Shown: piece after piece, positions 2,612 through 18,482 of the stretch
Layout of the letters: the number at the start of each line of letters is the position of its first letter
Position numbering within the stretch: the stretch's first letter is position 1
Source: a virus
Length of the DNA: 22,562 nucleotides
Strand: one strand, 5' to 3'
IMG/VR virus record: IMGVR_UViG_3300037502_002084
Location: 1-22,562 of that record
Notes under the pieces: model-generated
What the model saw: the letters and a program-made list of their open reading frames with translations, nothing else
What the model was told of the DNA's origin: nothing
The model's database searches: none
Position numbers and translations under genes: made by a program

Positions 2612-3342
2612 TGAGATTAGATGAAACATTATTAGCTGGTGATCTTCAAGGTCTAGTCAGTCACGTTTTTGAGATCGACAGTTATAAAAGTAAAATAGGT
2701 AAAGACGGTGAAATGGTCGTACTTAGCTTTACTGTTGATGAAAAGTCCCCAGCAGATGATCTAGCACGTTTTTTAGAAATGGGTTACGATTATATAATTG
2801 ATGCCGACCCAACAAATGGCCCAACTGACAACGGAAAATATAAAGTATTTGTAGAGCTAAAACGTACTAGATACATTGCAAAAGAAATTTTTGATATTTT
2901 AGATGGAGTAGAACGATTAACTGGTATCAAAAATTTTAAATTTAGATATTATAAAAGTTTTAAAAGTATCCCAGCTACTATGGAAAATCTAGAAGATCTA
3001 GTTCCAAAAGATCAGGGCACATACGAAGAAAGAATTTCAAATAATAGACTTAATAATTTTAGTAATTTTTTTAATAAAAGTTATCTAGAGAGTATCAATG
3101 TAACTGACGACAATATATCTTTCAAAAAAATGTTTGCAGAATCTATAAACATGAAAATTAAAGATTTTGGTCCAAAAAAATATATCTATGAAAATTTAGA
3201 AGGAAAAATAGATATCGAACCAAAAGCAATGTCTGAAATAATGTTTTTGACTAAAGCATTAGGAAACTATAATATCACAAAAATAAACAACAACTATATT
3301 TTTGAAAATGAAGATTATGCTGCGGTCATGGAGAAAATTTAA
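2611..3342 (+). CDS. Unrecognised conserved-looking phage protein
   Basis: A 243-residue soluble protein with no assigned function. The N-terminal half (about 1-120) alternates strands and helices: a VVLSFTVDEKSPADDLARFL segment, a GYDYIIDADP segment, then a YKVFVELKRTRYIAKEIFDIL segment ending in GIKNFKFRYYKSF. It resembles hypothetical proteins I recall from T4-like cyanophages, but I cannot name a family. The C-terminal half is Asn/Lys-rich and ends in a compact KINNNYIFENEDYAAVMEKI-like segment. It is joined by TAATG to both neighbours, within the late unit that leads into the spanin pair. Confidence 0.75.
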   Translation: MRLDETLLAGDLQGLVSHVFEIDSYKSKIGKDGEMVVLSFTVDEKSPADDLARFLEMGYDYIIDADPTNGPTDNGKYKVFVELKRTRYIAKEIFDILDGVERLTGIKNFKFRYYKSFKSIPATMENLEDLVPKDQGTYEERISNNRLNNFSNFFNKSYLESINVTDDNISFKKMFAESINMKIKDFGPKKYIYENLEGKIDIEPKAMSEIMFLTKALGNYNITKINNNYIFENEDYAAVMEKI

Positions 3343-3803
3343 TGTGGCAACTTAGTTATCTATTTGGATTCATTCCGGATAGTTTGTTTATATGGATAAC
3401 CTATGCTTTATTTGGTGCAGGCTTTATACTGTATGTGGTTAGTAAGTTAGTAGCGTGGCTTCCATTCATTAGCAGATATAAATTTCCTGTAGAAATTATT
3501 GGCGTAATATTTCTAGTAGTAGGTTCATATTTCTATGGCGGGTATGCTACGGAAAAAGTATGGCGCGAACGTGTTGCAGAGTTAGAAGCTAAAGTAGCTA
3601 GAGCCGAAGAAGAAAGTAAAAAAGTAAATGTAGTAATTAAAGAAAAAATTGTTACAAAAATAAAAGAAATAAAAATATTTCAGGATAGAATCAAAGAAGT
3701 AATTGTGGAAAAAGAAAAAATAATTGATGCACAATGCGAAGTACCACAAGAGGCTTTAGACATACTGAACGAAAGTGCTAAGGGCGTAGGTGAGCAAAAA
3801 TGA
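3342..3803 (+). CDS. Putative inner-membrane spanin (i-spanin)
   Basis: A 153-residue membrane protein with two hydrophobic segments, about 15-33 (IWITYALFGAGFILYVV) and 50-68 (EIIGVIFLVVGSYFYGGYA). They are separated by a positively charged loop. A long charged Lys/Glu coiled coil (about 71-131) follows. The predicted topology is N-out, loop in the cytoplasm, coiled coil in the periplasm. It overlaps a small lipoprotein gene by 4 bases, which is the usual arrangement of an Rz/Rz1-type pair joining the two membranes in the last step of lysis. Classical i-spanins have one membrane segment, so the second is unusual. The assignment comes from architecture and position, not motif identity. Confidence 0.68.
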   Translation: MWQLSYLFGFIPDSLFIWITYALFGAGFILYVVSKLVAWLPFISRYKFPVEIIGVIFLVVGSYFYGGYATEKVWRERVAELEAKVARAEEESKKVNVVIKEKIVTKIKEIKIFQDRIKEVIVEKEKIIDAQCEVPQEALDILNESAKGVGEQK

Positions 3804-4066
3804 AAACAATAGTTCTAATTCTCTTAACATCAGTTTTAGTTGGCTGTTCTAGCACTGCTCCGGTAAAGAGGAATTTTCCAGAAGTTCCTCAAGAACTTAT
3901 GGCTGCTTGCCCTGAATTAAAACAAGTAGAAAAGACTGAAAAACTCAGTAAAGTAATCACAACTGTTACTGAAAATTATGCCTTATATCATGAATGTAGA
4001 GCTAAAGTCGATACATGGATACTTTGGTATAATACTCAAAAGAAAATTTTCGATAGTGTACAATAA
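3800..4066 (+). CDS. Putative outer-membrane lipoprotein spanin (o-spanin)
   Basis: An 88-residue lipoprotein. The N-terminus is a signal peptide with lipobox LVGC; Cys16 would be lipidated and cleavage would leave about 73 periplasmic residues. The mature part begins with a Pro-containing stretch (KRNFPEVPQELM) and has paired cysteines and an amphipathic helix. It partners the preceding coiled-coil membrane protein, overlapping it as ATGA, as o-spanins do. There is no Asp at +2 (Ser17), consistent with sorting to the outer membrane. Another small phage lipoprotein is possible, but the neighbour makes a spanin most likely. It implies a Gram-negative host. Confidence 0.75.
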   Translation: MKTIVLILLTSVLVGCSSTAPVKRNFPEVPQELMAACPELKQVEKTEKLSKVITTVTENYALYHECRAKVDTWILWYNTQKKIFDSVQ

Positions 4067-8734: not shown

Positions 8735-8758
8735 TTGTGATATTGATAAATATCACAA
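8735..8758 (+). repeat. Perfect 9-bp inverted repeat containing a late promoter motif
   Basis: TTGTGATAT (8735-8743) and ATATCACAA (8750-8758) flank the six bases TGATAA. The GATAAATA late motif (8745-8752) spans the loop and part of the right arm. It may be a repressor or anti-late-activator site, an RNA hairpin at the end of the clpA operon, or chance in AT-rich DNA. No T-tract follows, so it is not a typical terminator. Confidence 0.5.
8745..8752 (+). promoter_or_regulatory. T4-type late promoter motif GATAAATA
   Basis: One mismatch from TATAAATA. It is 18 bases upstream of the start at 8771, with an AGGGGA ribosome site in between. It marks the switch from the early proteostasis operon to the late block. 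Confidence 0.62.
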
Positions 8759-8770
8759 TAGGGGATTGAC

Positions 8771-9232
8771 ATGACTGAAAAGGGACTTTCACATTACATG
8801 GAATTAGTCGAATCCGATGGGACTGACATATATCAGGGAGATGGGTTCTATTTCATGCTGGACGAAGATACTGGCGTAGAAACAGAAGTACTAACTGCCT
8901 GGGATGACGCTATCTTAGTTGAACTAGATCAAACAGCACTGGCTCTACTTCAGGACATTGGCGCAAAATTTATAGATTCCGATGATCTAAATGAAGCAAA
9001 ATATCAAGGTAGAACCGTACCTTTGGGCAAGCCTATGAAAGGTGATGTAGCCAAAAGCAAAGTTTATGTTCGCAAACCGAATGGTAAAATTGTTAAAGTA
9101 AATTTTGGCGACAAAAAACTCAGTATTAAAAAACACATTCCTGGCCGTAGAAAAAGTTTCCGTGCCAGACACAACTGTGCCAATCCGGGCCCACGTTGGA
9201 AAGCACGTTATTGGAGTTGTAGGGCTTGGTAA
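8771..9232 (+). CDS. Two-part late protein: acidic N-terminus, basic Cys/Trp C-terminal domain
   Basis: A 153-residue protein. Residues 1-75 are acidic. Residues 97-153 form a basic domain beginning KVYVRKPNGKIVKVNFGDKK and ending with an RRKSFRARHNC element, then ARYWSCRAW. This C-terminal domain is familiar from tailed phages and some large DNA viruses; I recall it as DUF5872, unverified. Its two cysteines (136 and 150) and many Arg/Trp suggest nucleic-acid or metal binding, but no function is known. A candidate T4 prohead-protease site, LNE|A (73-76), lies between the halves. It is the first gene behind the late motif at 8745, and the next gene starts one base after its stop. Confidence 0.75.
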   Translation: MTEKGLSHYMELVESDGTDIYQGDGFYFMLDEDTGVETEVLTAWDDAILVELDQTALALLQDIGAKFIDSDDLNEAKYQGRTVPLGKPMKGDVAKSKVYVRKPNGKIVKVNFGDKKLSIKKHIPGRRKSFRARHNCANPGPRWKARYWSCRAW

Positions 9233-9233
9233 T

Positions 9234-9614
9234 ATGAAAATCACAGAACTTTTTAATAATCCAAAAAAACCAATAGATCAACTATTAGGTAAAGAAAAAG
9301 ATCACGATATTGACAGTGACGAATTTAAATTTGATCTCGGTGAAGATTTAATTTATTTTATGCACAATAATGATGATTTCTACAGAAGGAACCTTTTCCC
9401 AGTACTAAAAGTATGCAAAAGAAAATTTGATCTTGGGCAAGGTTTCAGTCACCGTATGTTCAAGCCAATCATAGCTAAAGCATACGAAGCTTACAAAAAA
9501 GAATTTCCATTGAGAGAATTACAAGACAGGTTAGAAGAAGAAAAATGTGATGCTATAGCCAAAGAAATTTATAATACTGAGCTAGGTCACATGAAAGATG
9601 GAAAATACGAATAA
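9234..9614 (+). CDS. Unrecognised small acidic phage protein
   Basis: A 126-residue soluble protein with no known family. I use ATG 9234, one base after the preceding stop; earlier in-frame starts would run far into the upstream gene. The N-terminus MKITELFNNPKKPIDQLL resembles the M-x-[IL]-x-ELF openings of the proteins at 9614 and 13682. The middle is acidic (KDHDIDSDEFKFDLGEDL); the rest is helical with basic and acidic faces (FPVLKVCKRKFD, LRELQDRLEEEK). Similar small proteins precede structural genes in T4-like phages. It is joined by TAATG to the large protein that follows, suggesting a shared role. Confidence 0.7.
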   Translation: MKITELFNNPKKPIDQLLGKEKDHDIDSDEFKFDLGEDLIYFMHNNDDFYRRNLFPVLKVCKRKFDLGQGFSHRMFKPIIAKAYEAYKKEFPLRELQDRLEEEKCDAIAKEIYNTELGHMKDGKYE

Positions 9615-12600
9615 TGTTTTTAAGAGAACTTTTTTCGCCTTTGGCAAAGTTTCTACTTTATGAAGGCGGCAACTTAGTTATAGGTGATGTCGAAGCAAAC
9701 AAAATCGACACTAGTCAAAGAGCCAGTGTCGTGCCTATACTTGACAACGCACTTACAGCAATCAACAAGGCCTATGCCGCACAACACGGCAATAAAGGCA
9801 TATGGAATCCTAAATTATTGGCTAGTAAAAAATTCTTAGCAGGTTCCAGTTTTCATTTCTTTGATCGTACAGGCATATCTGATGAAATTTTTACACAGGT
9901 AAAAAGAACTGTTGGCGACATTGACACAATGATCGATAAGGACAAAAGAGATGACGTACTTACTTGGTTATCATCTCTTTCACAAGGAGCTGTAGTAGGA
10001 CCTGCACGTTTTGTTGGGTTTGATGATAAAGATCCTGTGCAAATATTAACTATGTGGCAATTCCCTGATATTGTTATCCAAAACAATGAAGGGAAACAAT
10101 TTCCAATCAATATTCAAATAGATTTGGAAATGAAAGAATATGAAAACGACGAACCAACTACTTGGAGTCAATTTAGTACTAGTAGCAGTTGGGAAGATAT
10201 CAGTGTTGGAGTCAAAGGTGTATTTCATAAATTTTTAATACAAAGTATGACTGGATTAACTGCCAAAGACTTTATGCTTAGAAAACTTGTGGGTCGAGGT
10301 AAAGCTCGTGCACCACAAGACATACCTACTAGAGATAATATGTACAGTTTTGCCATTAAATCAAAAGAAGGTGGCGGACTTAGACCCAAGTATGATCCAG
10401 TAATAGATCCGACTACTGGCAAACAAGAAATAGTAGATGGATTGCCTGTATTTGAACCACGTGCAACTACTGGCTACGAAAAAGATTTAGGTAAGATATT
10501 TCAAACTATTTTTGGCTCTAGAATGAAGCCAAAAGATTTAAATGCACAAAAAGAGAAATTTTGGAGTTTTGTTGGTGTAGCAAGTTTGATGAAACAGTAT
10601 TTGACTCCCGAAGAGCAAAACGAAGTTGTTGATAGTTTTTTAGAAAAACTTTTTGCTCCCGGTGCACAAGGTCTTTATGCTAATGATAAAGAAAAAGATC
10701 AGCAAGAAAAATCAGCTGCTGTAGATAAACTATTTGACATATTAGAAACTAATCCTCCAAAAGGATTGGATCAAATGAAACAGCAATACTATGCTGCCTA
10801 TAAATTAAGAGAAAGTATTTTTGAAGCAGAAGAAAAACCAGAAGTAGTACAAAGCAAACGTAAAAGCATAGTTCATTTAGAAAAAATGAAAGATATTGAC
10901 TTTTTAGATTTACTTGATGAATTACGTGATGAAACTAACGATAAAATAACATTGGATAATATTCCAATGACTGTTAAAATTGACGGCTTTGGGTCACGTT
11001 TTGGAAAAAGCGAAGACGGTAGGGCATTTTACGAAACCAGTAGAACTGGGCCTAAATTTGGTCCTGGTAAATTCTTAAAATATCATCTAGAAAAAGGCAC
11101 ACAGGACGAAGAAATTTTACGCAGAGCTGGATTATTTGATCAACTGCAAGATAAAATTATGGGTGTGATTGAACGTATTGATAAGCAATTAGGTAAAAAC
11201 TTTTTAACTGATGTTAAAGTACACGTGGAAGTACTATATCTCCCGTTTGCCAGCGAACAAGAAGACGGTAGATTAAAATTTGTTGGTATAAGCTACGACA
11301 AATTACCTGAAGGTGTTGATCTAGCACTAATTCCTTTATTTGCCGAAATTGGCAGCAGTGGTGCAAAACATCCTAAAAGTAATCTAATAATCAAACAATT
11401 AAAAAATATTGGCAACATGGGTGATACAATGTTCATAGATAATAATCTAACTACTGATGGTAGTATAGATGTTACTGGGCTTATACCCCCTATGGAAAAT
11501 TTAGAAACATTAAGAAACATGATTCTAAGTAACAAACGTGATGCTAAAAAAGAAGCAGCCGAAGCTTTACAACCATTAAAAGATAAACTAGCAAATTACA
11601 TCATTGAACACCCAGGTATATTAGGTAAAGATATATTAGGTAGAGACTACGAAGGTATTATTTTAAACAGCAAGCAGGGTCCTGTAAAAATTACCAGTAA
11701 GCAACAAAAAGATATAATCAAAGCTAAAAATGATGCTATTAAGGCTGCAAAGCCCCCACAAGCAGATCCTAACAAACCCAAGTCAGGCAAAACTGCTGTA
11801 GTGACTATCGGTAGTTTCATTGGTCACATTGGACATCAACAACTAGTCAATATGGTTTTAGATAAGGCACAAGCGTTAGGTGCTGATCCGTTTGTTTATA
11901 TCAGTAGTATGACCGGACCTGATGATCCAATCCCTCCAGAAGTTAAATTTGAAACTTGGCAGAGATTGTACCCAGAACAACGTGAAATATTTTCACTAAT
12001 ACAACCAGGCGGAACTCCAGTTAAAAAAATTGAAAAAGAATTAGTAACTGTAAGTAACCCACCGCCTTACGATAAAATTATAGTAATGGTAGGCGATGAT
12101 CGTTTTGAAGGTATGCGTAAATGGATGCAACACCTAAGTAAGCGTATGAAAAATCCGCAGTATCCAGGTTTTGAACATGTGGAATTTGATGTAGAAAATA
12201 CACCAAGAAATCCAGATGAAGGCGGCACTGGTATGAGCTTTACCGAATTACGTAATGTATTAAAAGACACAAGCAAAACAGCACAAGAACAATTTATTGC
12301 TTGGCGTAAAGCGTTTGATCCAATATTAGATGATAAATGGATCAAATATCTAATGACTGTGGCGAGAAAAGGAATGGGCATACAAGTTAAAAAAGATTTA
12401 AAAGAAAGTGTAATGAGTGAGATTGATTATCAAATTGGTAATAAATTGGACAGAGCCATTGCACTTTACAAAAAGAAAAGAATCAATGACGAAACTTTAG
12501 GCGACTTCACTATTAAGTTAGCCGGCAACGTGGCTAGAAAATTAGACCTAGATCAAGATGCAGTACAAGGTGTTATTAATGACTATGTGGATAACGCATT

Positions 12601-12715
12601 GTCAGATTTAGATGAAGAAGCCGCTGGTGTTGGAATTGTTACAAAACAAAATACAACTGCTGACGTTGGTCCTAGTACGTTAGGTAAAATGTTAAGAAGT
12701 TTGAAACTAGCATGA
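9614..12715 (+). CDS. Large multidomain protein: ligase-type and HIGH-type nucleotidyltransferases, possible third N-terminal NTase
   Basis: 1033 residues. Residues 1-17 (ending FLLYE, then GGN) look like a removable targeting peptide. Residues about 70-210 hold a GSS (77-79), DID (102-104) and IQID (Asp170) pattern resembling a pol-beta-type NTase signature; this is tentative. About 415-700 is a DNA/RNA-ligase-like core: KIDG with candidate adenylated Lys455, Glu539 in VHVEVLY as motif III, YEGIIL at 679-684 as motif IV, and Lys692 in VKI as motif V. About 727-900 is a cytidylyltransferase-like fold with GSFIGHIGH (HIGH at 738-741) and a late TGMSFTELR (872-880) in place of ISxTxxR. The 900-1033 tail is helical. 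Substrates are unknown; RNA or DNA end repair, or cofactor salvage, are possible. It is coupled to both neighbours. Confidence 0.8.
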   Translation: MFLRELFSPLAKFLLYEGGNLVIGDVEANKIDTSQRASVVPILDNALTAINKAYAAQHGNKGIWNPKLLASKKFLAGSSFHFFDRTGISDEIFTQVKRTVGDIDTMIDKDKRDDVLTWLSSLSQGAVVGPARFVGFDDKDPVQILTMWQFPDIVIQNNEGKQFPINIQIDLEMKEYENDEPTTWSQFSTSSSWEDISVGVKGVFHKFLIQSMTGLTAKDFMLRKLVGRGKARAPQDIPTRDNMYSFAIKSKEGGGLRPKYDPVIDPTTGKQEIVDGLPVFEPRATTGYEKDLGKIFQTIFGSRMKPKDLNAQKEKFWSFVGVASLMKQYLTPEEQNEVVDSFLEKLFAPGAQGLYANDKEKDQQEKSAAVDKLFDILETNPPKGLDQMKQQYYAAYKLRESIFEAEEKPEVVQSKRKSIVHLEKMKDIDFLDLLDELRDETNDKITLDNIPMTVKIDGFGSRFGKSEDGRAFYETSRTGPKFGPGKFLKYHLEKGTQDEEILRRAGLFDQLQDKIMGVIERIDKQLGKNFLTDVKVHVEVLYLPFASEQEDGRLKFVGISYDKLPEGVDLALIPLFAEIGSSGAKHPKSNLIIKQLKNIGNMGDTMFIDNNLTTDGSIDVTGLIPPMENLETLRNMILSNKRDAKKEAAEALQPLKDKLANYIIEHPGILGKDILGRDYEGIILNSKQGPVKITSKQQKDIIKAKNDAIKAAKPPQADPNKPKSGKTAVVTIGSFIGHIGHQQLVNMVLDKAQALGADPFVYISSMTGPDDPIPPEVKFETWQRLYPEQREIFSLIQPGGTPVKKIEKELVTVSNPPPYDKIIVMVGDDRFEGMRKWMQHLSKRMKNPQYPGFEHVEFDVENTPRNPDEGGTGMSFTELRNVLKDTSKTAQEQFIAWRKAFDPILDDKWIKYLMTVARKGMGIQVKKDLKESVMSEIDYQIGNKLDRAIALYKKKRINDETLGDFTIKLAGNVARKLDLDQDAVQGVINDYVDNALSDLDEEAAGVGIVTKQNTTADVGPSTLGKMLRSLKLA

Positions 12716-13026
12716 AGCAATACAAAATAACTTCTGATAATATTAGTAAAGATAGCCCAGATGACTGCTATCTAGATCCTAACGATCCTATACAAGAAAT
12801 AAAAGTTCTACAATATTTAGGCGGCATTAATGCCCAAGGCAGATTATATGAATATCGTCTGCAGAATCAAAAGGCAGCACAAGGCAGTAATATCAGTGTA
12901 ACAGGTAATGAAAAAGGCGAGCTTATGAAAAAACATAATATCAAACCTGGAACACCAGAATGGTTTAAGCTATGGTTCAGTTTACCATATCTTACTGGCG
13001 AAGGGCCTGTCGACAAAAGTCGATAA
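12712..13026 (+). CDS. Unrecognised 104-residue phage protein
   Basis: A soluble protein of unknown function, overlapping the preceding gene as ATGA. It has an acidic start (SPDDCYLDPNDPIQEIKVL) and a central LGGINAQGRLYEYRL segment. It ends in a GTPEWFKLWFSLPYLTGE-like aromatic segment that resembles a short structured domain in other T4-like phage proteins. Its stop codon lies inside the late promoter motif for the endolysin gene. Confidence 0.68.
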   Translation: MKQYKITSDNISKDSPDDCYLDPNDPIQEIKVLQYLGGINAQGRLYEYRLQNQKAAQGSNISVTGNEKGELMKKHNIKPGTPEWFKLWFSLPYLTGEGPVDKSR

Positions 13027-13029
13027 ATA
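13022..13029 (+). promoter_or_regulatory. T4-type late promoter motif GATAAATA
   Basis: The motif contains the TAA stop (13024-13026) of the upstream gene and lies 20 bases before the endolysin start. A GGAG ribosome site is at 13039-13042. Confidence 0.62.
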
Positions 13030-13049: not shown

Positions 13050-13682
13050 ATGAGTTTTGAATTTGATTTCACTAGAGAAAAACTAGCAGCTTGCATCTAC
13101 AAAAACAAGAATCCCGATCCTTGGTATGATGCACTATATGAAAATTTACCAACATTTGAAATTGTAACCCCAGCACGTGTCGCTGGGTTTATTGCACAAT
13201 GTCAGCACGAAAGTTTAGACTTTACTTTATTACAAGAAAACTTGAATTACAGTGCTAAAGGTCTAAATGGAACATTTAAAAAATATTTTCCTACGACAGA
13301 TTTAGCCGAATCATATCAACGCCAACCAGAAAAGATTGCTAATAGAGTTTATGCTAGCCGAATGGGCAACGGTGATGAAAGGTCTGGCGACGGATTTAAA
13401 TTCCGTGGGCGTGGGTTGATTCAACTTACTGGGCGTGATAACTACACAGCATTTAGTCGTGATTTCTTTGGTGATGATCACGTTGTTCAAGATCCTGACT
13501 TAGTACGCACACCGCCATATGCTGTGTTAAGTGCCTGCTGGTTCTGGAACAAAAACAAATTAAATCAGTGGTGTGATGCAGGTGATGTAGTTACACTAAG
13601 CAAACGTATTAATGGCGGTACCATTGGACTCGATGATCGCATCAGCCATTGGAACCATTGCTTAGATATTTTGGAATCCTGA
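13050..13682 (+). CDS. GH19 chitinase-like endolysin
   Basis: Peptidoglycan-cleaving lysozyme-like enzyme of glycoside hydrolase family 19, 210 residues, a single catalytic domain. The catalytic acid is Glu54 in the QCQHESLDF segment; Glu110 in NGDERSGDG is the likely second acid. The family signature KFRGRGLIQLTGRDNY (117-132) is intact, and a CWFW segment and an RINGG segment (187-191) complete the fold. There is no signal peptide, so export depends on a holin; the EF-hand protein at 4091 is a candidate. There is also no separate wall-binding domain. It has its own late motif and ribosome site, and its stop overlaps the next start (TGATG). Confidence 0.92.
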   Translation: MSFEFDFTREKLAACIYKNKNPDPWYDALYENLPTFEIVTPARVAGFIAQCQHESLDFTLLQENLNYSAKGLNGTFKKYFPTTDLAESYQRQPEKIANRVYASRMGNGDERSGDGFKFRGRGLIQLTGRDNYTAFSRDFFGDDHVVQDPDLVRTPPYAVLSACWFWNKNKLNQWCDAGDVVTLSKRINGGTIGLDDRISHWNHCLDILES

Positions 13683-13918
13683 TGAGATTAAGGGAACTAT
13701 TTGAGGAAGCATCTGCTGGTGCAACCAGTGCCAGCAGTATCGCTGCGGTTCCTAATCCTAATTTAGCAATTGGTGACTCACGTGCCAGAAAATCCTATGG
13801 AAACAGTGCAAATCCCAAGCCTCCACAAACAAAACAGCGTAAAAACAGCAACGGAACAGCGAAAAATGCACTAGACATGACTACAAACATATTTGGTGGA
13901 GAAACCATCAAACGATAA
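13682..13918 (+). CDS. Small conserved phage protein, possible head internal peptide
   Basis: A 78-residue basic protein. ATG 13682 overlaps the endolysin stop by one base; an upstream in-frame ATG lies inside the endolysin gene. It opens MRLRELFEEASAGATSASS, then AVPNPNLAIGDSRARKSYG, PKPPQTK and a tail NIFGGETIKR. I recall close relatives in T4-like cyanophages, annotated only as hypothetical. The opening resembles the capsid-targeting peptide of T4 internal proteins (recalled as MKTYQEFIAEA): both have E-[LF]-[FI]-x-E-A. Packaging in the head is an inference. The stop codon is embedded in the next late motif. Confidence 0.72.
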   Translation: MRLRELFEEASAGATSASSIAAVPNPNLAIGDSRARKSYGNSANPKPPQTKQRKNSNGTAKNALDMTTNIFGGETIKR

Positions 13919-13921
13919 ATA
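13914..13921 (+). promoter_or_regulatory. T4-type late promoter motif GATAAATA
   Basis: It contains the TAA stop (13916-13918) of the preceding gene and lies 24 bases before the start at 13946. GGAG at 13934-13937 is the ribosome site. The same stop-in-promoter arrangement occurs at 13022. Confidence 0.62.
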
Positions 13922-13945: not shown

Positions 13946-14965
13946 ATGCACATCGAAATGGAACCAATGAGAGGCCCAGAACACGACGACGAAGGTCGTA
14001 TGGCCAAAGCGGACCTATACAAATTAGCCAATTATAGCCTTAAATTATTCAAGCAATTAGACAATAGTCAACAACTTGAAGGTTGGGTACAGGCTAAAAT
14101 TACCAAGGCCGCTGACTACATTGCCAGCGTATATCACTATATGGAATATGAGATGAAGTTTAGTGAGTATGGTCAGGCTATTGAAGACAGCGATGTGTAT
14201 ACAGAGAGCCAAAAGCGCGAGCTAAAGAACAAGCTATTTGAAGCTAAAGAAAAAATCAAAGATCTTAAGAAAGCACAAGCTGAAAAACTTAAGAAAAAAG
14301 AAAAGAAAGACATTGAAGAAGCAAGTGGATTCCGTGCAACAGATAAGAAAAAAGGCAAAGTAGAAAAGAGTGAAAAGAAACAATACTTTGTTAAGTTAGA
14401 AAAAGAAGGCAAAACCAAAGGCATGACTATGGTCGCTGACGAAGGCGAAACTGAAGGCGATATCCGTGATCGTGCCAAGAGAGACAATCAAGGTTGGAGT
14501 GTTGCCAGTGTTCGTGTTAAAGACAGCGGTAGTGGAGAAGAAGTCAGCGAAGGCAAGCGTATGAAGGACAAGAAGTCCGCAGAAGGTAACAGATTCACAC
14601 ATAATCTTAAAAAAGCTCGTGACGCAGGTAAAAAACAAGCTGACCTAGATGGTGACGGTGACATGGAAAAGGTTCAGAAAGAGAATCAAGATGCGGCGGC
14701 TGCAAGAACAGCAAGAAATAAAGTAGCTAATGATTTGGCTGCTCAAGACGCTCCTAAAGAAGGAAGAAAAACTAAAGAAAATATGATGAGTGCTCTTGGC
14801 AAGGCTGCTGGCGCGGCAGGTGCCGCAGTTGCTGGTGCTCCACAAAAGTCAGGCATTCCTGCTACAGCAAAAACTACTGTACCAGGAATGAGAGCTACAC
14901 AACAAGATTTAAAAAATGTTAATGCCGGTGCAGCTCTTGGTGAGAAAAGAAAAGGTAAAAAATAA
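13946..14965 (+). CDS. Lys-rich late protein with DxDxDG motif, probable virion/head-associated
   Basis: A 339-residue highly charged protein. Residues 20-80 are a helical domain (ADLYKLANYSLKLFKQL, then AADYIASVYHYMEYE) of a type I recall in cyanophage hypothetical proteins. A Lys/Glu coiled helix (90-125) follows, then a small beta-like domain (144-194) and an RFTHNLKKARDAGKKQ element. A DLDGDGD loop at 234-239, with Asp233, 235, 237 and 239, has the pattern of calcium-binding dockerin/EF loops. The tail is Ala/Gly-rich (284-300) and basic. Candidate T4 prohead-protease sites are LFE99|A and IEE125|A. It has its own late motif and ribosome site and heads a three-gene unit. Function unknown. 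Confidence 0.72.
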   Translation: MHIEMEPMRGPEHDDEGRMAKADLYKLANYSLKLFKQLDNSQQLEGWVQAKITKAADYIASVYHYMEYEMKFSEYGQAIEDSDVYTESQKRELKNKLFEAKEKIKDLKKAQAEKLKKKEKKDIEEASGFRATDKKKGKVEKSEKKQYFVKLEKEGKTKGMTMVADEGETEGDIRDRAKRDNQGWSVASVRVKDSGSGEEVSEGKRMKDKKSAEGNRFTHNLKKARDAGKKQADLDGDGDMEKVQKENQDAAAARTARNKVANDLAAQDAPKEGRKTKENMMSALGKAAGAAGAAVAGAPQKSGIPATAKTTVPGMRATQQDLKNVNAGAALGEKRKGKK

Positions 14966-14967
14966 TC

Positions 14968-16362
14968 ATGGATGTCAAACAAGTACTTGCGCTAATTGAT
15001 TCTGCAGAACAGAAAAAAGAAACGTTGACTGAAGGTAAAAACATGGCCAAAGACATGGTCATGCAACATTATACCAAAAAAGAAATTAGTACACCTGTTA
15101 GAAAACCAGTTAGCAAACTCAACGAGTATTTTAAAGTAGTAGACAACGAAATGCTAAACGTAATCAAAGAAGAGCGTGAAGCAAAACGTGTTGAAGTTAA
15201 ATCCATTGTTAATCGTGTTTTAGAACGTTTAGATGAAGGCAAAAAAGTAGAAGCACCTAAGCCACGTAACTTTGTTGCTAAAAATGCTAAGACTGCTGGT
15301 GCTGGCGCACACAAAGATAAAAAGAAAGCTGAAAAACAAGGTGACTTAAAACATAAAAAAGAAAAAGTACCTATGGATGAAAACGAACAGCTAAGTGAAA
15401 AAGCTGTTAGCAAAGCACAACAGAAATTTATGGGCATGGTACATGCCGCCAAGAAAGGTGAAAAGCCGGCCAGCAAGGAAGTTGCTACGGCTGCTAAAGG
15501 AATGAGTGCTAAGGCAGCTAAGGATTATGCTAGTACCAAGCACAAAGGTCTTCCAAATAAAAAAGTAGACGAAGAGAAGAAAAAAGGTACACACGGAAAA
15601 GCCTGCTGGGACGGATATCGTAGAGTAGGACAAAACGATTGTGTTAAAGTAAGTGAAGCTATCGAAGTCGGTTCACCAGTTCGTGTTTACAGCAACGTAT
15701 TAAAAAAATCAGTGTTAGGCACTGTAGTTGCTATTAACGAAAACAAAGTATACATAAACTATAACAACACAAAAATTGTTATGGGTCATCCAATTAGTAA
15801 AATTGAATTAAACGAAGCGGCAGCAGCAACGGCAGCTAAGGTTGCTGGCCAGGCAGCACCAGGTATGTTAGCAAAAGCAGCAAGATTTATCCCAGGTGTC
15901 GGTTTAGTAGCAGGTGGGTATGACGCTTACAAACGTGCTCAAGCAGGTGACTATACTGGTGCGGCGCTTAGTGCTGGTGCAGGTCTTGCAGGTCTAGTTC
16001 CAGGCTTAGGTACTACCGTAGCAACTGGTTTAATTGGGGCGCAAATGGGTCGTGATTACGCTAAAACAGGCAGTGTACTTCCAGACTATGATGAAATGGG
16101 TAAGGCTGCGCAAAAAGGTCAAGCCCCAACACCAACACCAACACCACAACCAAATAGGAAAACTGGTGCTATAATAAATGGTTCACCCGAATCGATCAAA
16201 ATAATGCAGAAAAAGTTATCTGATGCTGGTGCAAAGAACACCGATGGAACACCTTTAGTAGCAGATGGTAAAATAGGTTCAAACACTCAGGCAGCTATGA
16301 AACAGTTCCCTGATATTGCTAAAACATACAATTATGGACGACCTGGCACAGTAGGTGCATAA
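14968..16362 (+). CDS. Late protein with DUF3008-like segment, glycine-rich membrane region and peptidoglycan-binding domain
   Basis: 464 residues. The opening MDVKQVLALIDSAEQ resembles that of the next gene and is followed by LTE22|G. Residues 40-140 are charged helix and basic linker. Residues 144-203 (AVSKAQQKFMGMVHAAKKG, later TKHKGLPNK) match my memory of DUF3008. KACWDGYRRVGQNDC (211-225) follows, then a small beta domain (228-282). Residues 284-362 are an Ala/Gly zipper with hydrophobic stretches near 308-318 and 333-360. After a TP-repeat linker (387-393), 405-451 reads as a PG_binding_1-like repeat (SPESIKIMQKKLSDAG with DGKIGSNTQAAM). Candidate processing sites are LTE22|G, LDE90|G and LNE283|A. 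Architecture suggests an ejected or envelope-acting virion protein; this is inference. Confidence 0.75.
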   Translation: MDVKQVLALIDSAEQKKETLTEGKNMAKDMVMQHYTKKEISTPVRKPVSKLNEYFKVVDNEMLNVIKEEREAKRVEVKSIVNRVLERLDEGKKVEAPKPRNFVAKNAKTAGAGAHKDKKKAEKQGDLKHKKEKVPMDENEQLSEKAVSKAQQKFMGMVHAAKKGEKPASKEVATAAKGMSAKAAKDYASTKHKGLPNKKVDEEKKKGTHGKACWDGYRRVGQNDCVKVSEAIEVGSPVRVYSNVLKKSVLGTVVAINENKVYINYNNTKIVMGHPISKIELNEAAAATAAKVAGQAAPGMLAKAARFIPGVGLVAGGYDAYKRAQAGDYTGAALSAGAGLAGLVPGLGTTVATGLIGAQMGRDYAKTGSVLPDYDEMGKAAQKGQAPTPTPTPQPNRKTGAIINGSPESIKIMQKKLSDAGAKNTDGTPLVADGKIGSNTQAAMKQFPDIAKTYNYGRPGTVGA

Positions 16363-16382
16363 AAAATTCAGAGGAACAAGAA

Positions 16383-18122
16383 ATGGATATTAGATCACTA
16401 ATTTCAAAATTAGATAGTATACAAGCACTTAACGAAGCATTAACTTTAGATCAAGTTACTGCCGCAGTTGGTCAAGAAAAAAGCGAACAAAAACGTGCAA
16501 AAATACTTATGGGCTTGGCTCAAAAAGAAAATTTGCCAGGTTTATATGATCCTGTAAGTGGATATTTTGTCAGTGCAACACCTGATAAAAACTACATGAC
16601 ACAACAGGAAACTCCAAGGATCAGTGCCACAGCTAGTAAAAGTTCAGATCAAAAGTTAGCACAGTTGGGTCTAGTTCCTCAAAATGCAAGTACATCAACA
16701 TTTTTAGGTCGCATGTTTAGAGGTGATCAAAAAGGTCAATACGATCTTGATACCAAACAAACTTCTAGAGATGCAAGATTGCAACAGTTAATTGCAGACT
16801 TAGTAGGCAAAGCTGGTCCATTATTAGACAAACTAGAAAAGAAATATGCTGCACCAACAACTGAAGGTATAAGGTATACCAGTGGTATTGCTAGAGCACT
16901 AGCAGAAAGTATTGGCTACGATTTATTTGAAGCTGAAGCACCTGCTAGTAGTAGCTATACAGGGCAAGCGGCTACACCAGCTGCACCTGCTGAAGAAGAT
17001 CCAGATCTAAAAGCACTAGAAGCCATTATGATGCAGTTAAGTGATATTTCTGATCCTAAAGTAGAACCAATTAAAGATCGTTATGCGGCATTATTACAGA
17101 TGATGGATACTGCTAAAAAGGCAGCAGCCGATAAAGAAAAACAAGCCGCTGACACTAAGAACGCACAAGCAGAAGCAGATGCACTTACAAGAGAAGGTCT
17201 AAAGAAAAAAATCGCAAGATTAAAAGAATTATTAGACAAACAAAAAGCTAAAAAAGGTGGTATAACACCTGGACAGAATGCTAGAGATGATTTATTAGCA
17301 AGACAGGGATCCACTACAGACCCATTAGCTAGAGATGATGCAACTAAAAATGCACTCCCTAAGGGAATGACTATAGAAAATTTAAGCGAAAGTGAAATCA
17401 TTGCGAGACTACGTAAGCAGTTAGAGGATATTGAAAATCGTATTGATGAAGGCGATGACATAGATGAAAACGTGTTCCAGGCTATCGGTCAAGGAGTTAA
17501 GGGCGCAGTTAACGTTGGTAGAAACTTTATTGGCGGTATAGGCGGTAGAGCAGCCACAGGCACAGTTAGAAGTGCTGACGAACTAGCTGCGGCACAAAAA
17601 GCTACCAACGCCGCAAGAAAGGCTGCTGGTAAGAAACCATTAACCAAAGCACAACAAGCTCAACAAGCTAAAGCAGGTATTGGTACTGTTAACCCAGCAA
17701 GCAAAGCAGCCAGAGTAGCTAATACAGCTGGACAAGTAGTTAGAGCTAATCCAGTTAGAACAGCATTGGCAACTGCTGCCGGTGGCGCAGCCATAGGTTA
17801 TGGATTAAACAAAGACGATCCAAAACAAGACGTTACTCCAGTACCAACTCCAGGACCAGTAGGACCCGTACCAGCACCTGATCCAACTCCAGCACCAGCA
17901 CCAGCACCTGATCCAACTCCAGCACCAGCAACTGATCCGACTCCAGCAACACCGGTTGATGATCCAGATATGAAAGAGATTGGGCAATTAATGAGTGATA
18001 TTGGTCAATACACAAATCCTCAAGAAGCACCTGCTGATGTAGTTGACATGGCTACTAAAGAATTGGATGCTGCGAGAAAGGCATTGAAAGAGCTAGGACT
18101 AGATGCCCCTGCAGAAGAATAA
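16383..18122 (+). CDS. Ala/Gly/Pro-rich late protein with repeated helical module, probable processed head protein
   Basis: 579 residues, low complexity. The opening MDIRSLISKLDSIQALNE|A parallels the neighbour upstream and ends in a candidate prohead-protease site (E18|A19). Further sites are LFE183|A, LSE336|S and IDE356|G. Residues 206-250 (DPDLKALEAIMMQLSDI...) reappear in weaker form at 527-572 (DPDMKEIGQLMSDIGQY...). Coiled-coil helices span 232-290 and 338-356. An Ala/Gly-rich region (365-475) has glycine-zipper segments. Residues 485-525 are a Pro/Ala/Thr linker with DPTPAP repeats. It has no enzyme motif. It follows the previous gene by 20 bases with an AGAGGA ribosome site and is ended by a strong terminator. 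Confidence 0.72.
   Translation: MDIRSLISKLDSIQALNEALTLDQVTAAVGQEKSEQKRAKILMGLAQKENLPGLYDPVSGYFVSATPDKNYMTQQETPRISATASKSSDQKLAQLGLVPQNASTSTFLGRMFRGDQKGQYDLDTKQTSRDARLQQLIADLVGKAGPLLDKLEKKYAAPTTEGIRYTSGIARALAESIGYDLFEAEAPASSSYTGQAATPAAPAEEDPDLKALEAIMMQLSDISDPKVEPIKDRYAALLQMMDTAKKAAADKEKQAADTKNAQAEADALTREGLKKKIARLKELLDKQKAKKGGITPGQNARDDLLARQGSTTDPLARDDATKNALPKGMTIENLSESEIIARLRKQLEDIENRIDEGDDIDENVFQAIGQGVKGAVNVGRNFIGGIGGRAATGTVRSADELAAAQKATNAARKAAGKKPLTKAQQAQQAKAGIGTVNPASKAARVANTAGQVVRANPVRTALATAAGGAAIGYGLNKDDPKQDVTPVPTPGPVGPVPAPDPTPAPAPAPDPTPAPATDPTPATPVDDPDMKEIGQLMSDIGQYTNPQEAPADVVDMATKELDAARKALKELGLDAPAEE
17880..17957 (+). repeat. Short tandem repeat encoding DPTPAP units
   Basis: Three in-frame copies of 30, 24 and 24 bases start at 17880, 17910 and 17934. 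Each begins GATCC(A/G)ACTCCAGCA and encodes DPTPA plus a variable tail. Unit length differs by two residues between copies, consistent with slippage or unequal recombination in a flexible linker. Confidence 0.85.
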
Positions 18123-18227: not shown

Positions 18228-18482
18228 ATGTCAAGAATGTACGGACCAGAAGAAAAGGCTAAATTGGAACGTTTGATTAATGAAGGCTCAACTGTATTAC
18301 GTGAAGTTGAAGATTTACAAGAAGGCTTAAAAGAAACTGTTAAGGCCGTTGCAGAAGAACTTAATATTAAACCCAGCGTTATTCAACGTGCTATCAAAAT
18401 AGCACACAAGGGTGACTGGAGTGCGTACAATGAAGATTGGGCTGAAATTGAAAGCATTTTAGAAGTTACCAAAAAGATTTAA
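18228..18482 (+). CDS. dsbA: DsbA-like double-stranded DNA-binding protein
   Basis: An 84-residue acidic/basic helical protein. In T4, DsbA (89 residues) binds double-stranded DNA and assists late transcription. The C-terminal half here (AEELNIKPSVIQRAIKIAHK, then ...YNEDWAEIESILE) aligns in pattern with T4 DsbA (KDELGVDGKMFNRLLALYHK, then an acidic helix), including the central helix and His-Lys. A helical N-terminal half (LERLINEGSTVLREVEDLQE) matches the T4 layout. It is first behind a clear sigma70 promoter with a GGAG site. Identification is by remembered similarity of a short protein, so moderately sure. Confidence 0.72.
   Translation: MSRMYGPEEKAKLERLINEGSTVLREVEDLQEGLKETVKAVAEELNIKPSVIQRAIKIAHKGDWSAYNEDWAEIESILEVTKKI

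Follow-up and report, generated by a model that had tools for sequence, protein, structure and literature searches.

The 22,562-base IMG/VR virus record IMGVR_UViG_3300037502_002084, hereafter the window, comes from a T4-like freshwater phage and encodes ClpA, DsbA, gp43, PhoH and a glycoside-hydrolase-like endolysin. The late-gene cluster between ClpA and DsbA includes several unlike proteins that begin with a short amphipathic helix followed by a candidate cleavage site for the head protease gp21, and these N-termini, candidate capsid-targeting propeptides, are the subject of this report. Genes are named by the position of their first base, a bar within a sequence marks the presumed cut, and the cluster features given with coordinates below all lie on the + strand. 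Relatives were collected from IMG/VR through protein searches with 14968, 16383 and gp43 as queries. A DNA search with the whole window found no close isolate, and tblastn of 16383 against isolated phages gave no match. The closest gp43 proteins among isolates are those of Atu_ph07 and Phosso; among selected neighbouring N-termini of these two phages, a single Phosso gene has a similar start, MKTTKDIIFETLLLE|A.

N-terminal sites in late proteins of the window

An amphipathic helix of one kind forms the N-terminus of both adjacent gene products, 14968 and 16383. Translation of 14968 gives MDVKQVLALIDSAEQKKETLTE|G (putative capsid-targeting propeptide, 14968..15033), with the helix ending at LTE22|G, and translation of 16383 gives MDIRSLISKLDSIQALNE|A (putative propeptide, 16383..16436), with the helix ending at LNE18|A. 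The 1033-residue product of 9614 starts MFLRELFSPLAKFLLYE|GG (putative propeptide, 9614..9664), its site being LYE17|G. These three sites had been named in an earlier note made from the DNA letters, and all of them are present in the translations; the likeness that the note saw between the starts of 14968 and 16383 also holds, a profile of the 16383 family finding the 14968 N-terminus with p ~3e-4 against internal Met 12-mers. A fourth gene, 13682-13918, had been overlooked. Its 78-residue product starts MRLRELFEE|ASAGATSA (putative propeptide, 13682..13708; predicted mature part, 13709..13915), and whereas the other three sites fit [LI]xE followed by a small residue, its FEE|A does so only loosely. 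The putative propeptides in the window are 9-22 residues long. As candidate targeting sequences of the window type we list MDIRSLISKLDSIQALNEA and MRLRELFEEA.

Strict [LI]xE[AGS] sites are abundant in the products of 8771, 13946, 14968 and 16383, as had been claimed, although their 1535 residues hold 12 of them rather than the approximately ten first counted. Shuffling each of the four proteins gives an expectation of 2.7 sites, and none of 2000 shuffles reached 12, an enrichment stronger than the modest one previously described. The density earlier assigned to ClpA and gp43, one site per 400-550 residues, agrees with gp43 (1 per 444) but not with ClpA (1 per 253); the counts in both lie near their own expectation. 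Position had been judged the stronger argument, and position together with conservation does provide better evidence than enrichment. Across ClpA-to-DsbA clusters, the density of sites falls from 17.1 per 1000 at positions 5-14 to 2.9 beyond residue 60, compared with 6.2 and 1.6 in control genes, a set that still holds some cluster genes from contigs lacking the DsbA anchor.

Conservation in homologues had been proposed as a check on the sites, and they are kept there. In the 16383 family, the site glutamate (E18) occupies the same alignment column in 10 of 10 homologues, some of which are close relatives of one another, while the distance from helix to site differs by as many as six residues; only one other glutamate column of the alignment is fully invariant. 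The family's variants are LNE|A, INE|A, LLE|G, LLE|A, LAE|A, LSE|G and LSE|T, with L or I at P3 and A, G or T at P1'. The internal sites of 16383 are less conserved (kept in 7, 4, 5 and 2 of the 10 homologues). Sites of the 14968 family lie between residues 12 and 34 and read LTE|G, LTE|S, ITE|S, VTE|G, VNE|G or INE|G. Tandem pairs of signals, of the form MDMKKILQALDG...VE|G..DMKKFLSIVxE|G, occur in several members (L012 163-798, L091 5410-6027, L088 922-1518 and L138 7473-8153). Eight homologues of 9614 keep E17-G18-G19-N20 without exception, though GGN may be kept there for other reasons. Homologues of the neighbouring gene 9234 also have sites (MRINELLE|G, MRIRELLE|G).

A motif as short as [LI]xE[AGS] might turn up by chance in any Glu-rich protein. 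The DsbA homologue of the window (18228-18482), whose T4 counterpart is a regulator that binds DNA, shows how the bare gp21 motif yields false positives: it bears two widely conserved matches, INE19|G and LQE32|G. Because this protein also carries matches, the bare motif alone proves nothing, and bare counts in the cyanophages S-SCSM1 and S-CREM2, given below, are not significant. Nevertheless, the 12 sites against 2.7 expected, the positional excess and the homologue alignments all speak against chance, which we regard as extremely unlikely to account for the N-terminal sites.

Modular N-termini and the proteins that bear them

The bodies of 16383, 14968, 8771, 9614 and 13682 show no general homology among themselves. 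The 16383 signal has a match in the N-termini of 8771 relatives, MRDLISKLDAIISE|T or MRDLLSKLDAIINE|A (the matching stretches read MDIRSLISKLDSI and MRDLISKLDAI), while the bodies do not match. A second signal type, M[RK][LI]RELFxE, heads nucleotidyltransferases, DUF6267, DUF6321, DUF7230-like and small proteins. Both types occur on unrelated bodies of the late-gene cluster across dozens of related contigs, and the Pfam families found behind such signals are DUF6267, CTP_transf_like, DUF6321 and PG_binding_1. The signal with its gp21-type site is shared, terminal, conserved and modular.

Pattern counts place the signal at true protein starts. A matrix trained on 16383 N-termini scored at least 6 in 88 of 1824 N-termini, a count that includes the training family, versus 2 of 10,201 internal Met 12-mers. 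Two N-terminal patterns, A and C, written after the families had been seen, matched 47 and 67, respectively, of 327 cluster N-termini, versus 0 and 2 of 1745 internal Met positions. Among proteins selected by the ELF pattern, a selection that ignores the site itself, a site lies at residues 7-22 in 56 of 114, whereas each of five equally wide windows farther along contains a site in 0-12 of them. Counting the bare motif over whole genomes gave a weak signal (in the long relative G013, 17 of 212 proteins versus 9.2 expected).

These observations bear on the possibility that the N-terminal helix is an unremoved docking element, binding to the prohead core or between proteins, with LxE merely reflecting helix composition. 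The product of 9234 and homologues starting MFLREFLNRTGEG keep the helix without a good site, and P1' is variable, as such docking would allow. It would leave unexplained why the 16383 site glutamate is among the best-conserved N-terminal positions, why L or I is kept at P3 despite spacer changes, and why sites are far commoner at residues 7-22 than in windows farther along these proteins. We consider docking without removal unlikely.

The adjacency of 14968 and 16383 and the similarity of their N-termini could also reflect nothing but common ancestry of neighbouring genes, with no role in targeting. This is very unlikely, given that the signal is also present on non-homologous bodies outside the cluster (G013 101753, G014 136214 and G015 71635) and that T4 internal proteins and cyanophage virion enzymes show a similar layout.

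The bodies themselves are diverse. The remainder of the 9614 multidomain protein (9665..12712) contains a nucleotidyltransferase-fold domain at residues 724-923, the region covered by fold comparison. Its structure model has a best Z of 13.3 to phosphopantetheine adenylyltransferase (PPAT; 154 residues, root-mean-square deviation 3.0), with NMNAT and NadD near Z 12, and since PPAT, NMNAT and NadD give similar Z values, the fold does not identify the substrate. The 9614 profile matched no sequence in the PDB. The remainder of 14968 (15034..16359) is a mosaic with segments of several kinds (DUF7230-like, DUF3008-like, ACWDGY, beta-rich, Gly/Ala hydrophobic and PG_binding_1), of which the DUF7230-like and DUF3008-like pieces score below Pfam cut-offs and the PG_binding_1-like piece forms the C-terminal end. 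The AlphaFold model of this protein is poor (mean predicted local distance difference test score, pLDDT, 43), only residues ~410-450 approaching 75. An internal site, LDE90|G (15229..15237), lies directly before the DUF7230-like segment and is kept in 4 of 4 homologues. The rest of the 579-residue, Ala/Pro-rich 16383 protein (16437..18119) starts ALTLDQVTAAVGQE.

Three further genes of the cluster complete the picture. The 153-residue product of 8771 (8771..9232) has LVE14|S near its N-terminus and LNE75|A before a basic C-terminal module. This Cys/aromatic basic module, RKSFRARHNCANPGPRWKARYWSCRAW (phrog_7595), is joined in relatives to N-terminal parts of many lengths. The 126-residue product of 9234 (9234..9614) starts MKITELF, and the window copy is without a cleavage site. 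The 339-residue, basic helical product of 13946 (13946..14965) has no N-terminal site and carries internal sites at 99 and 125.

gp21, gp23 and late promoters

The capsid-targeting interpretation presupposes a gp21-type protease, for which the earlier note had suggested a search. Peptidase_S77 (gp21) is encoded, together with gp23, by all three long relatives obtained through gp43, G013, G014 and G015 (223, 238 and 139 kb), and gp21 is also present in two further long contigs from the 14968 search; it was not found in the shorter relative contigs. This result and the conservation of the sites in homologues support the interpretation.

The gp23 proteins of G013 and G014 have LLE18|G and L[AS]E41|SATAGATSAGNVATL, and what follows site 41, L[SA]E41|SATAGATSAGN, is close to the 13682 family. 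In 13682 itself, MRLRELFEE|ASAGATSASSIAAV, the string after the site resembles gp23 just after the gp23 site, and its relatives MKIQELLE|SATSGGTSSGNVATA and MKIRDITE|TATAGSTSAGNIGTV repeat the gp23 string after theirs. In some relatives (L021 7842, L031 5220 and L072 7845), a gp23-like [VT]LE|[STD]A[ST]SG[GA]TSAG follows a different leader of ~17-19 residues (e.g. MNNEFKAKQFKDTTVYTLE) and is fused to a DUF7230-like module.

T4 gp22, gp67 and gp68 are prohead core proteins degraded by gp21, and the proteins described here could likewise be core or scaffold components chopped up by the protease rather than cargo staying in the mature head. The gp22 proteins of G013-G015 contain 10-14 relaxed sites; 14968 and 16383 also have several sites each, more than their shuffles (P 0.02 and 0.005), and the conserved LDE90|G of 14968 precedes a module. 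Most internal sites, however, are poorly conserved, enzyme and peptidoglycan-binding domains make little sense in a discarded core, and NMNAT-like enzymes survive in mature cyanophage virions. A scaffold role is possible, though we find it doubtful.

All four ATAAATA sequences of the window are GATAAATA on the + strand, 18-26 bases before genes 2081, 8771, 13050 and 13946, each of which could start an operon. Within the cluster, the elements lie at 8745..8752 (18 bases before 8771), 13022..13029 (before 13050) and 13914..13921 (24 bases before 13946, the operon head with 14968 and 16383). Over the window and the three long relatives, 51 of 95 occurrences of [AGT]ATAAATA precede a start by 8-45 bases, versus 4 of 195 for four scrambled motifs. 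The T4 late promoter TATAAATA was not found in the window, GATAAATA being the local form. These promoter-like sequences point to late expression of the operons.

Elsewhere in the window, at 3342-4066, two open reading frames overlap. One encodes a membrane protein that includes a coiled-coil-like stretch, the other a lipoprotein-like product (MKTIVLILLTSVLVGCSS); judged by these features, they look like an Rz/Rz1-type spanin pair.

Related systems and a proposed role in head entry

Capsid targeting sequences are known in T4 on a handful of proteins, and gp21 removes those of the internal proteins. Re-reading of the T4 record gives MKTYQEFIAE10|A for IPII and IPIII and ITE19|A for IPI, with IAE9|A in gp22, LRE10|S in gp24, LIE6|A in gp67 and IPE21|A in gp68. 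As in T4 IPI, IPII, IPIII and Alt, the proteins described here have a short N-terminal propeptide, of 6-19 residues in T4 and 9-22 here (PMC9026906, PMC5694885), and they share with the T4 internal proteins a hydrophobic helix face, a P1 glutamate, L or I at P3, unlike carrier proteins and, in relatives, gp21. Residues 4 and 7 of IPIII matter for targeting, and residues 8 and 10 for processing (PMC9026906); the hydrophobic periodicity of the MD and ELF types is similar to that of IPIII with shifted positions, and the cyanophage form MKxFxxFLxE matches IPIII exactly. Unlike T4 MKTYQEF, however, the signals here read MD-x-[KR]-x-[LI][LI]-x-x-[LI]-D and M[RK]LRELF, some are tandem, and the cargo is broader. 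Inner-head propeptides of the giant phages phiKZ and SPN3US are likewise found on unlike head proteins and cut after glutamate by a gp21-related protease, but several are longer than 100 residues and the enzyme is more distantly related (PMC5694885). No earlier description of such signals in this clade turned up in the papers searched, although one may exist.

An outside check, which agrees with capsid targeting, is provided by cyanophages with published virion proteomes. The S-SCSM1 NMNAT-like protein, detected in the virion by mass spectrometry (PMC9602691), starts MKSFLQFLKE10|A. Its homologues start MKSFSQFLTE|T (P-SSM2), MKKFSAFLKE|A (P-SSM3), MKKFSAFLTE|A (S-CAM22, S-RIM8) and MKKFSTFISE|A (S-ShM2); this cyanophage form, MKxFxxFLxE|A, has the layout of T4 IPIII. 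The authors of the S-SCSM1 study left undecided whether such proteins are packaged or contaminants (PMC9602691), as did those of the S-CREM2 virion proteome (PMC10665884). In S-CREM2, the pattern MK.[FY]..F[LI].E, defined from T4 IPIII and the other cyanophage enzymes, occurs in 3 of 50 virion proteins versus 0 of 172 others (p=0.011); the three, all virion-detected, are a SAM hydrolase, an APH/ChoK-like kinase and a cytidylyltransferase. In a virion-detected Cas9-like nuclease of S-CREM2, RFASFMAE25|A lies close to the annotated start, and that start may have been placed too far upstream (kinase and cytidylyltransferase, with T4-IPIII-like starts, and Cas9-like nuclease: L227 7080-9347, L227 4205-6814 and L228 30609-31469). 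The information lies in the N-terminal pattern and not in the tetrapeptide. S-SCSM1 and S-CREM2 resemble the window phage in placing a short N-terminal signal on unrelated enzymes, with nucleotidyltransferase cargo in both; they differ in being Kyanoviridae, whose MKxFxxFLxE is closer to the T4 signal.

Several observations weigh against capsid targeting. gp21 was not found within the 22.6-kb window. P1' is relaxed, the first candidate site of the MDFKSL subfamily being LNE|D and 13682 requiring FEE|A; the helix occurs without a site in the window 9234 protein and some nucleotidyltransferase homologues; and the bare motif is unspecific, as DsbA illustrates. One of the three strict S-CREM2 matches belongs to the enzyme family used to build the pattern, and a broader pattern (5 virion proteins versus 0) was set after the data had been seen. 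Virion enrichment of the bare site is not significant in either S-SCSM1 (7 of 45 versus 17 of 234, p=0.08) or S-CREM2 (4 of 25 versus 3 of 53, p=0.20).

On balance, the N-termini of 14968, 16383, 9614 and 13682 are probably T4-type capsid-targeting propeptides removed by a gp21-type protease; that the proteins bind the core, are cut by gp21, are present in this virion and are injected is what we infer. In such a pathway, an amphipathic helix 9-22 residues long would attach to the prohead core during late assembly and carry an otherwise unrelated protein into the head. The gp21-type protease of the phage would then cut after the glutamate, at [LIV]xE|[AGST], and the mature protein would stay in the head and be injected with the DNA into the next host. 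The bodies would represent interchangeable cargo: a nucleotidyltransferase-fold enzyme, a mosaic with a peptidoglycan-binding domain and small basic proteins.

More tentatively, T4-superfamily phages of fresh and sea water may share a fast-evolving set of head-entry tags with which they pack enzymes and host-interaction proteins as a large, interchangeable payload, perhaps including tandem tags and a 14968 polyprotein cut into modules by the head protease after packaging. If the capsid-targeting reading is correct, many more unrelated proteins of aquatic phages would use the T4 mechanism than the few known in T4, and entry into the head, and probably into the next host, could be predicted for phage proteins from short N-terminal patterns. 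Such tags may also account for NMNAT, SAM hydrolase and kinases in virion preparations of the related ocean cyanophages, as packaged proteins rather than contaminants.

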